Source: Fibrobacter sp. UWR2 (lineage in GTDB: Bacteria > Fibrobacterota > Fibrobacteria > Fibrobacterales > Fibrobacteraceae). Taken from it: a stretch of DNA of 64,000 nt. The notes below the pieces were generated by a model. The model did no database searches. It had not been told where the DNA came from and worked only from the letters and a program-made list of their open reading frames with translations. Location of the stretch: assembly GCF_002210285.1 (NCBI RefSeq), contig NZ_MWQE01000007.1:62001-126000 (forward strand), given 5' to 3'. Below are positions 54,322 to 57,278 of this stretch, in pieces (position 1 is the first letter of the stretch; every line of letters starts with the position of its first letter). Made by a program: the position numbers and the translations under genes.

Positions 54322-55206
54322 TTACAAGTCATGATTGAACAACATGCATTTTTCGCATGTTGCACCCGCAGAGGCGCTGTCGCCGAAACGGCGCTCGGGA
54401 TTGGGGCAATGTTCTTCCGAACCATCGGGCAAGATCCAGATTTCGTCCTTGAACAAATCGCAGGGACCGCCGCCAAGATGCACGTCGAAAAAAAGACTCC
54501 CTTCGCAGCGCACGCGCGGGAACTGCGCCTGCAACGCTTCCAGCTCCCGACGAATTTCGCGAGCAGCCAGGCCCGAGATTCCGTATTCATTCCGCAAGCG
54601 CTCCCCCGCCGAGATAAACACCGGCAGGTTCCACTTGATGCGGACTATTCCGACAGAATCCGCCCAGTGCAAGATTTCCGGAGCAAAGCTTAAAAGTTTC
54701 CTGTGCAGTGTCACCTGGAGCGAGACACTCGCGACATTCCGTCCTGTCGCGGAGCCTGCACATAAACTGCGCGCCACACCAAGCAGGCGTTCGACATTCC
54801 GGCGCCAAGGCTCAAACGAAATTCCCGGCATCATCTCGTCGAACGCGGGATCCTCGAATCCCATGCAGCTCACCTTGATGTCGCTGCAGGCAAGGAGCAG
54901 ACGCTCCATCCCTGCAGCCGTTCCCCATATTCCAGGGAACGTTCCGTTTGTCGTCAGGTTGAGCGGGATTTTTTTCGCAGAACAATATTCGAGCAGTTCC
55001 GCAAATTTCGAATAAAGTAAAGGCTCCCCCATCGTACTCGGGATAACCTCGCGAAGTCCGCTCCCCGCATTTTTTTCAATCGCGGCCTTCGCGACCTCGA
55101 TAGGCATCTCGCCCATCCCGAAAGGCCGTCCCCGCTGGTTCAAGAAGCACAACGGGCAACGCAGGTTGCACTTGTCCGGATTCGTGAGGAGTGTGAGCCG
55201 GCGCAT
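54322..55206 (-). CDS. radical SAM protein with C-terminal Cys cluster
   Basis: This 294-aa protein carries the CxxxCxxC cluster near the N-terminus (DKCNLRCPLCFLNQ) that binds the radical SAM [4Fe-4S]. The GE motif (STMGEPLLY) and the strand LNLTTNGTF of the barrel follow. The C-terminal 60 residues have additional Cys (GPCDLFKDE, EHCPNPERR, TCEKCMLFNH), a possible auxiliary SPASM/twitch cluster. The substrate is unknown. The gene is 24 bases downstream of a thioredoxin-reductase-like gene on the same strand; that protein might supply electrons. Confidence 0.82.
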   Translation of the reverse strand: MRRLTLLTNPDKCNLRCPLCFLNQRGRPFGMGEMPIEVAKAAIEKNAGSGLREVIPSTMGEPLLYSKFAELLEYCSAKKIPLNLTTNGTFPGIWGTAAGMERLLLACSDIKVSCMGFEDPAFDEMMPGISFEPWRRNVERLLGVARSLCAGSATGRNVASVSLQVTLHRKLLSFAPEILHWADSVGIVRIKWNLPVFISAGERLRNEYGISGLAAREIRRELEALQAQFPRVRCEGSLFFDVHLGGGPCDLFKDEIWILPDGSEEHCPNPERRFGDSASAGATCEKCMLFNHDL

Positions 55207-55230
55207 CGCACAGATACCGCAGGTGTAGTC

Positions 55231-56100
55231 CTAACCTTCCCGCGTCTCCCGCAAATACTTGATGGCAGCAAGGCCCGCAATCGCGCCCTCGCCTACGGCG
55301 ACGGCGACCTGCAATGTACCACCGGTGCAGTCGCCCGCGGCAAACAGTCCGGGAACAGTCGTCATGAAGTTCCTGTCGAGTACAACGTTCCCGTTTTCGA
55401 AAGCCGCACCCGCCTTGCGGGCTAGGTCCATCGCGCTTGCGCTCCCGAGGGCAACGAACAGTCCGTCGAGCTTTATCTCGGATTCGTCCATGAACACGGC
55501 TCCGGCAAGCTGACCTTCGCCAAGCAACGCCTTGAGCGGACGCTTGTCAATCTTCACCGTCTCCGGAAATTCAGCCGTAACCTCGGCCCCATTGGTCAGG
55601 AGCGTCACGCTACCGGCAACATTCAAGAGTTCCTTGCACTCGTGGAGGGCGTATTCCCCAGCCCCGAGCACGGCGACATCCTTACCGCGATAGAAAAAGG
55701 CATCGCAAATCGCACAGTAACTCACTCCATGGCCTTCCAGTTCGGCCATCTTCGGCAGAGGCTGTTTTTTGCGGGCAGAACCCGTCGCCATGATGCATGC
55801 GCGGCCGCGGTATTCACCCTTTAGGCCTGTCGCCACGAACATCTTGCCGTCAAAGTACAGGTCCGTCACCTCGTCGTCAACGATTTGCGCCCCAAGACGT
55901 GCCGCCTGAGCCTTCCCTACAGCAAAAAGGTCCGAACCGGCCAGCGGCTTCTCCAGGCCATAGTAATTCTCTATCATATGGGCTTTCTCGAGCGCCCCGG
56001 AATCCTTGCCGACCAGCACGACGTCCAATCCGGACCTAAGTGCATACAAGCTAGCCGACACTCCAGCCGGTCCATAACCGATAATAATTACATCTGACAT
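55231..56100 (-). CDS. thioredoxin-reductase-like FAD oxidoreductase
   Basis: This 289-aa protein has the FAD-binding motif IIIGYGPAGVSASLYAL, the redox pair CAIC in VSYCAICDAFFY, a second Rossmann motif VLGAGEYAL, and the C-terminal FAD motif GLFAAGDCTGG. It is short (E. coli TrxB is 321 aa). After the second Rossmann motif, LLTNGAEV replaces the HRRxxxR that binds the NADPH 2'-phosphate, so NADPH use is uncertain. The start at 56100 has AGAGG before it. It is probably co-transcribed with the radical SAM gene. Confidence 0.85.
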   Translation of the reverse strand: MSDVIIIGYGPAGVSASLYALRSGLDVVLVGKDSGALEKAHMIENYYGLEKPLAGSDLFAVGKAQAARLGAQIVDDEVTDLYFDGKMFVATGLKGEYRGRACIMATGSARKKQPLPKMAELEGHGVSYCAICDAFFYRGKDVAVLGAGEYALHECKELLNVAGSVTLLTNGAEVTAEFPETVKIDKRPLKALLGEGQLAGAVFMDESEIKLDGLFVALGSASAMDLARKAGAAFENGNVVLDRNFMTTVPGLFAAGDCTGGTLQVAVAVGEGAIAGLAAIKYLRETREG

Positions 56101-56165: not shown

Positions 56166-57278
56166 ATGGATTGCAAAAAGCCACGCGACATGTTCGTCGA
56201 AGCAGGCTACGGCCCGAACTTCGCCGACCAGTTAATCCAGAATGCATTCAGCAAGCTCTTTGAAGGCGACCCCATCGATGAACGCGTCTGCTTTGAAGCC
56301 TCCGACGACATGGCCTACATCATCGACATCGGACACGACGATATCCGCTCCGAGGGCATGAGCTACGGCATGTTCATTGCGGCCCTCACCGGCCACGACA
56401 AACTGTTCCAGAAACTATGGAACTTCGCGAAGAAATACCTGCGCAACAACGACGGCCCGCACAAGGGTTACTACTCCTGGCAAGTTTCCACGACCGACTT
56501 CTCGATGATGGACCCGGGTGCCGCACCCGACGGCGAAGAATACATCGCCGCAGCCCTCCTGATTGCCGCCAACAAGTTTAACCGCGATGACTACAGGCAA
56601 GAAGCCATCGAACTCATCGACTGTATCAAGAACAAGCCGTTCAACGAACTCGTGGGCCCGATGATCGACCCCGAAAGGAAACTCATCAAGTTCTCCCCCG
56701 TACTCGGCAACGACTTTACCGACCCGAGTTACCACACCATAGCCTTCTACCGCGCCTTCGCCAAGGCCACCGGCGACAGCGAATGGTTCGAAATTGCAAA
56801 GAACAGCATTGAATACCTGAAAAAGGCCGCACACCCGGTCACCGGGCTCTGCGGCGACTACTCCGAATACGACGGCACACCCAAGGCCATGCCGTGGTTC
56901 CCCGAAAGCAACTGCTTCAGCGGCGACGCCTGGCGCGTTGCCCTCAACCTAAGTCTCGACTACGCGCTCAACCGCGGCGACGAGAGCGAAAAGGAAATCT
57001 GCACACGCCTGCTAAACTTCTTCGAAAGCCGCAGGCCCTACCTCTCGGACTACGCTACAGACGGCACGCCATACCCGAGGCAAGGCCGCAACGCCACTCC
57101 CGGAATTATCGCCATGAATGCAGCGGCAACACAAGTACTCGATTCGGAAGACCCGCTCATCAGGCCCTTCGTTAGGGACCTCGCGGCACTCTCCGTCCCG
57201 TTCCGTTTTTGGCGCTACTACGACGGTATGCTCTACATCATCGGCATACTCGCCACAGCCGGCAAGATTATCATCTAA
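56166..57278 (+). CDS. GH8 reducing-end-xylose-releasing exo-oligoxylanase (Rex-like)
   Basis: This 370-aa glycoside hydrolase of family 8 is like Rex of Bacillus halodurans, which removes xylose from the reducing end of xylo-oligosaccharides. SEGMSYGMFIA carries the proton donor Glu63, GYYSWQVSTT and DPGAAPDGEEYIAAALL form the substrate site (Asp122), and YYDGMLYIIG is a family end. There is no signal peptide, so it is cytoplasmic. The gene has AAGGA before the ATG and is followed by a FISUMP lipoprotein gene. It is full length. Confidence 0.88.
   Translation: MDCKKPRDMFVEAGYGPNFADQLIQNAFSKLFEGDPIDERVCFEASDDMAYIIDIGHDDIRSEGMSYGMFIAALTGHDKLFQKLWNFAKKYLRNNDGPHKGYYSWQVSTTDFSMMDPGAAPDGEEYIAAALLIAANKFNRDDYRQEAIELIDCIKNKPFNELVGPMIDPERKLIKFSPVLGNDFTDPSYHTIAFYRAFAKATGDSEWFEIAKNSIEYLKKAAHPVTGLCGDYSEYDGTPKAMPWFPESNCFSGDAWRVALNLSLDYALNRGDESEKEICTRLLNFFESRRPYLSDYATDGTPYPRQGRNATPGIIAMNAAATQVLDSEDPLIRPFVRDLAALSVPFRFWRYYDGMLYIIGILATAGKIII

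Follow-up and report, generated by a model that had tools for sequence, protein, structure and literature searches.

The thioredoxin reductase DvTRi of Desulfovibrio vulgaris is described as being reduced by neither NADPH nor NADH, and as reducing Trx1 once it is itself reduced (PMC5627308). In the same account, TRi enzymes carry TQ/NGK in place of the HRRD motif, their electron donor is given as an open question, DvTRi is a spare enzyme beside an NADPH enzyme with a mild effect upon deletion, and three thermophilic cellulolytic clostridia have TRi only (PMC5627308). Ferredoxin-dependent flavin thioredoxin reductases (FFTRs) are reported to be unable to use NADPH; a cell may have no system for thioredoxin reduction besides them (PMC12796991). 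According to PMC4704652, a thioredoxin reductase is encoded by all Fibrobacteres genomes but one. The string 'Fibrobact' is absent from the main text of PMC5627308, and our literature search found no paper on TRi in Fibrobacter or on the gene pair presented here.

We analysed a 64,000-nucleotide stretch (the window) of Fibrobacter sp. UWR2, whose whole genome (G000) is 3.28 Mb and 100% complete. On its minus strand, a gene for a flavoprotein is followed downstream by one for a radical SAM (rSAM) protein; as in the initial annotation, the two open reading frames lie on one strand, 24 bases apart. A search of the GTDB collection gave 413 stretches with an rSAM relative, of which the best 80 were kept; the 81 family rows and the 55 flavoprotein orthologues (those of the paired loci) counted below come from these best 80 of 413. 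The features are as follows:

54322-55206, minus strand: rSAM gene, 294 amino acids, ATG at 55206, likely a streamlined SPASM/twitch-type enzyme (open reading frame, PF04055, structure model and fold match)
54346-54462, minus strand: C-terminal Cys stretch of the rSAM protein (C249, C267, C284, C287), all four likely to bind a single auxiliary Fe-S cluster
55147-55170, minus strand: CX3CX2C radical SAM cluster motif (C13, C17, C20), in 81/81 family rows
55207-55230, no strand: gap of 24 bases between the flavoprotein and rSAM genes
55231-56100, minus strand: flavoprotein gene, 289 amino acids, ATG at 56100, probably a TRi-like thioredoxin reductase with a single Pyr_redox_2 domain
55585-55596, minus strand: TNGA replacing HRRD in the flavoprotein; HRR in 0/55 and TN[GND] in 53/55 orthologues
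55639-55665, minus strand: GAGEYALHE replacing GGGxxAxE, with the GxGxxA fingerprint kept; EYA[LM]HE in 55/55 orthologues
55705-55716, minus strand: CAIC redox disulfide (flavoprotein residues 129-132); CA[IV]C in 55/55 orthologues

A ribosome-binding-like AGAGG stretch stands in front of the flavoprotein ATG. Both proteins scored above the Pfam cut-off, with 48.3 bits for Radical_SAM and 111.9 bits (best domain) for Pyr_redox_2. A read-through fusion of the two genes was considered and dropped, since they share a reading frame in the window and in locus L040 but not in L041. Upstream of the pair, a divergently oriented gene (56166-57278, plus strand) encodes a glycosyl hydrolase family 8 domain (Pfam), and such a gene adjoins the pair in 32/55 paired loci (best 80 of 413 rSAM relatives). 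A nearby FISUMP-domain gene, together with the named rSAM relatives, marks the genome as Fibrobacter-type.

Among PDB chains, the closest sequence to the flavoprotein was DvTRi (5nii), at 194 bits and 38% identity over 283 residues, with the next chain at 134 bits. The flavoprotein is a single Pyr_redox_2 protein of the ∼300-residue size of TRi enzymes and carries their CxxC. In addition to the motifs listed above, FFY[RK] and a basic [GT][HKR]G were found in all 55 orthologues. The initial annotation had remarked on the retained CAIC pair and the missing HRRxxxR motif. Indeed, the flavoprotein reads LLTNGAEVTAEF where the Bacillus cereus enzyme (7aaw) has IVHRRDTLRAQ, and it scored 211.5 bits with the NADPH thioredoxin reductase equivalog TIGR01292 (cut-off, 343.45 bits). 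On the motifs and this score, a canonical NADPH thioredoxin reductase was rejected. A donor other than NADPH, as had been proposed, is likely because the 2′-phosphate motif is gone in 55/55 orthologues. Judged by these motifs, the flavoprotein is probably an unusual thioredoxin reductase for which NADPH use is unlikely. The residues G146, G148 and A151 (GxGxxA) were invariant in 24/24 flavoprotein rows, so NADH use is possible as far as sequence goes; DvTRi also keeps this fingerprint, yet in the published account it is not reduced by NADH (PMC5627308).

We describe the enzyme as TRi-like rather than TRi because the window has TNGA, without the Lys of TQ/NGK, and because, at a thioredoxin contact published as Lys/Arg in TRi, the window and most rows have His (a few have Lys). 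The flavoprotein of F. intestinalis (L122) has TLGK at the HRRD position. In a 36-row tree, the Fibrobacter sequences grouped with DvTRi and one sequence from Treponema saccharophilum (24 rows, support 96/94), with long branches flagged and weak support for the deepest forks within this side. The other side comprised eleven rows (97/96), NADPH-type where inspected except for a Fusobacterium sequence, and a distant Eubacterium eligens row stood apart from both. A structure model of moderate confidence (pLDDT 82.1) gave Z scores of 23.8 to 21.6 among the 50 matches listed, including 23.4 for DvTRi, and did not separate the subfamilies. No relative of the flavoprotein was found in the viral_contigs scan. 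On the T. saccharophilum plasmid pTS2 (L151:3377-4900), a TRi-like gene adjoins a glutathione peroxidase gene.

The conservation of the pair was examined, as the initial annotation had advised. The two genes were adjacent on the same strand in 36/37 same-genus genomes, with 6 to 369 bases separating the match ends, so the adjacency seen in the window is not a chance observation. The best 80 of 413 stretches contained 61 Fibrobacter-type loci, of which 55 were paired, four unpaired (L094 of F. intestinalis, L095, L097 and L098) and two at a contig edge (L056 and L099). With the latter left out, 55/59 assessable loci were paired, a count that shares many species with that for the genus and so is not independent of it. 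Pairing is therefore not peculiar to this strain. The surroundings changed more than the pair itself, with six upstream contexts among 53 paired loci and 20 downstream contexts among 51 with enough sequence (best 80 of 413). Such retention through changed flanks would also fit direct functional coupling. On the rSAM tree, pairing amounted to two changes. One 100% complete genome (G032) kept the reductase and had no rSAM orthologue, and F. intestinalis-type genomes have both genes, apart. Thus, the linkage of the two genes is real but not obligatory.

These data also bear on whether the operon is an accident, that is, an ancestral joining kept by chance or by a weak benefit of co-expression, with no common biochemistry. 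So few events on the tree would suit this account, as would the reductase without rSAM in G032 and the faster divergence of the rSAM protein (78% identity in the nearest relative versus 98% for the flavoprotein). However, the pair persisted while its neighbours shifted on both sides, and we consider an accident rather improbable.

A TRi-like orthologue was present in all 37 same-genus genomes (66-100% identity), split in two pieces in one of them (G031). In 36/37, no other low-molecular-weight thioredoxin reductase was found, in a count that ignores partial matches inside longer proteins. About 15 of these genomes are <90% complete, so the absence of a second reductase carries little weight there. 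The sole genus genome with a second full-length match, of the NADPH type, was G028, which has 8% contamination. In the genome that contains the window, a search with the NADPH family model gave no other full-length match, and no catalytic subunit of a ferredoxin:thioredoxin reductase (FTR) was found. Outside the genus, 22/23 genomes had a match (best E 7.9e-32, 33% identity). Four other Fibrobacter-type genomes (G061, G063, G064 and G065) held a TRi-like gene plus a second reductase gene, and HRRD was present in the three second reductases that were read (G063, G064 and G065). F. intestinalis G060 had only the TRi-like gene, and G062, for which completeness is not given, had only an NADPH-type reductase, with no TRi found. 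In three of these genomes, which lie outside the succinogenes group, the NADPH-type reductase gene (L142, L144 and L145, from G063, G065 and G064) adjoins an apparent class III ribonucleotide reductase gene, as judged by eye. The usually sole TRi-like reductase in Fibrobacter extends the remark on the three clostridia in PMC5627308.

Thioredoxin-family matches above the cut-off were present in 38/38 genus genomes searched. Since the TRi-like enzyme is the sole such reductase found in 36/37 genomes and the thioredoxin-contact positions keep FFY and a basic residue, the flavoprotein most likely serves thioredoxin in general. A small thioredoxin of the window's genome (L136, G000:C7:57369-57671) has a WCRPC active site instead of the usual WCGPC and lies on the same contig, ∼59 kb from the pair; in G003, G005, G010, G029 and G034 a small thioredoxin is ∼2.2 kb away. 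Among candidate donors, Flavodoxin_1 had no match in G009 (99% complete) and matched only ∼390-residue proteins in G029 and G032. As an argument against flavodoxin as the obligate donor, these gaps were undone by matches to Flavodoxin_4 in 5/5 and Flavodoxin_5 in 4/5 genomes inspected. Fer4_10 matched in 5/5 of the same set. With both ferredoxin- and flavodoxin-family proteins in the genus, the donor is not narrowed.

The AlphaFold2 model of the rSAM protein (pLDDT 92.4) was closest to SuiB in VIA-align (Z 21.2; 3.1 Å, 259 aligned residues), followed by DesII (19.2), SkfB (18.9), anSME (18.8), BlsE (18.7), viperin (18.4) and MoaA (17.9), with neighbouring rows tied. The extra cysteines noted in the initial annotation were borne out: C13, C17, C20, C249 and C267 were invariant in 38/38 aligned relatives, and the window protein has a terminal CxxC (C284/C287). 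The protein thus combines the CX3CX2C core and fold of SPASM/twitch enzymes with their C-terminal Cys set. Pfam SPASM (PF13186) was not matched by the window rSAM protein. No named rSAM family could be assigned: 32 NCBIfam models gave matches, and those listed all fell far short of their cut-offs and covered chiefly the core common to rSAM enzymes. C249, C267, C284 and C287 are likely ligands of one predicted auxiliary Fe-S cluster, and the protein is likely a streamlined SPASM/twitch-type enzyme.

Among the best 80 of 413, the Cys pair flanking the hairpin (C249 and C267) was as invariant as CX3CX2C (81/81 family rows), and the terminal CxxC was found in 19/19 non-Fibrobacter rows and 33/62 Fibrobacter rows. 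No Cys followed the hairpin in 22 Fibrobacter rows, L055, L069 and L090 among them. In all 22, the 30 residues preceding the hairpin contained at least two Cys, as they did in 8/33 of the rows ending in CxxC and 5/7 intermediate rows. From the alignment, it looks like the tail ligands of one auxiliary cluster were swapped for pre-hairpin Cys. With ∼2 independent losses and a tree test without power, this is a pattern and not a proven correlation.

We next considered the 19 non-Fibrobacter rSAM loci in the best 80 of 413, which come from Pseudomonadota and other proteobacteria, Dehalococcoidia, Bacteroidales, Nitrospinae and a Heimdallarchaeota archaeon. Near the rSAM gene, these loci encode a WG-repeat protein (19/19), a GT4 glycosyltransferase (18/19) and a histidine phosphatase (18/19), and some add a carbamoyltransferase or epimerase. 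None (0/19) had a TRi match at 1e-5 in its flank, and cassette genes such as GT4 and WG-repeat were found in 0/61 Fibrobacter-type loci. The Fibrobacter rSAM is free-standing, in a family whose members elsewhere work in a sugar-type cassette. This GT4 - rSAM/SPASM - WG-repeat - histidine phosphatase cassette is widespread (L101-L119, e.g. L119:3750-9763), and our literature search found no paper on it. In L119, GT4 and rSAM-SPASM are fused in one 735-residue protein (PF13186, 34.9 bits). Two Fibrobacter genomes (G033 and G006) each have a further 39% rSAM match inside a 770- or 744-residue frame, probably the fused form.

These comparisons bear on a second alternative, a thiol-coupled pair, in which the thioredoxin system is either the target of the rSAM enzyme or the means of resetting it, and TRi/Trx keeps a Cys of the enzyme or of a protein/peptide substrate reduced in one redox modification. 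The linkage in 55/59 assessable loci through six upstream and 20 downstream contexts (best 80 of 413) would suit such coupling, and the nearest solved folds include the peptide- or protein-modifying SPASM enzymes SuiB, SkfB and anSME. Set against this are the 19 outside relatives without a flanking reductase, the 4/59 unlinked Fibrobacter-type loci and the lack of a recognisable substrate gene beside the pair on inspection by eye. We regard this alternative as unlikely. A bolder combination is similarly unlikely: a ferredoxin-fed (not NAD(P)H) TRi-like reductase and a twitch-type rSAM enzyme acting on one substrate or electron pool, together with two auxiliary ligands moved from tail to pre-hairpin within one genus. 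If true, this would provide a first lead from genetics to the donor of TRi enzymes and to their partner.

The initial annotation went further and presented the flavoprotein as a dedicated partner that could reduce the rSAM cluster. Neither proposal found support, since each gene also occurs singly (G032, and the separated genes of F. intestinalis-type genomes) and 19/19 outside relatives sit in a reductase-free cassette. Likewise, a flavoprotein that is usually the only thioredoxin reductase found in its genome is hardly reserved for one enzyme. Apart from the adjacency of the genes, direct transfer of electrons from the flavoprotein to the rSAM [4Fe-4S] cluster has two reported precedents: rSAM enzymes can be activated in vitro by diverse flavins, including flavoproteins and even FMN plus NADPH (PMC10470005), and the FAD of a ferredoxin-dependent relative (FFTR) is at a highly negative potential (PMC12796991). 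These precedents keep direct reduction from being impossible. However, the thioredoxin-type motifs CA[IV]C, FFY and [GT][HKR]G are kept in 55/55 orthologues, and the rSAM gene occurs unlinked, also in G062, where no TRi was found. That each gene is able to stand alone argues against obligate electron transfer between the two, and we consider direct reduction very improbable. Compared with dedicated cluster reduction, we find it likelier that the two share a low-potential donor and are co-expressed, or that they take part in a thiol-linked reaction; a common low-potential pool or shared regulation is likewise likelier than private electron transfer.

On balance, we lean towards a pairing of a TRi-like general thioredoxin reductase with an rSAM modifying enzyme, co-transcribed and linked through a common low-potential pool or redox condition, with no private reductant role. 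In this pairing, the TRi-like reductase would be fed not by NADPH but most likely by a ferredoxin or flavodoxin-type carrier, or possibly by NADH, and would pass the electrons through FAD and then CAIC to the ordinary thioredoxin of the cell. In the Fibrobacter succinogenes group it would be the general, and usually the sole, thioredoxin reductase. The rSAM protein, of SPASM/twitch type with one auxiliary cluster, would modify a substrate, and the flavoprotein would not be its private reductant. The two genes may be transcribed and kept together because their products share one low-potential source of electrons or respond to a common redox condition. As the TRi-like enzyme is apparently the sole reductase, the entire thiol economy of this cellulose-degrading rumen bacterium would depend on its donor, which makes the TRi donor question testable. 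The conserved rSAM neighbour, from a family without a curated name, is a concrete second handle. Because this reductase is usually the only one found in the cell, the gut fibre-degrader Fibrobacter is a place to find out which donor supplies TRi-like enzymes.

Compared with the known systems, the Fibrobacter flavoprotein is most like DvTRi: both are single-domain proteins with CxxC, FF and an altered NADPH site, on the same side of the tree. The Fibrobacter sequences differ in having TNGA-type rather than TQGK, GEYALHE rather than GVFAANQ, and mostly His rather than Lys/Arg at the thioredoxin contact. The FFTRs of Gloeobacter and Clostridium are less similar to the flavoprotein, at 120 bits for 6gnc, which we take to be an FFTR, and 118 bits for 5j60, versus 194 for DvTRi. 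The window rSAM shares a near whole-chain fold, CX3CX2C and a C-terminal Cys set with SuiB, SkfB, anSME, BlsE, DesII and MoaA, but is only 13-16% identical to these SPASM/twitch enzymes, and matches neither Pfam SPASM nor any NCBIfam model at cut-off. The rSAM proteins of the GT4/rSAM-SPASM/WG-repeat/histidine phosphatase/carbamoyltransferase cassette are closer, with 29-36% identity over near full length; unlike them, the Fibrobacter rSAM is free-standing and has a shortened tail. Finally, whereas DvTRi is a spare thioredoxin reductase, the Fibrobacter TRi-like enzyme is usually the sole one and is linked to an rSAM gene.
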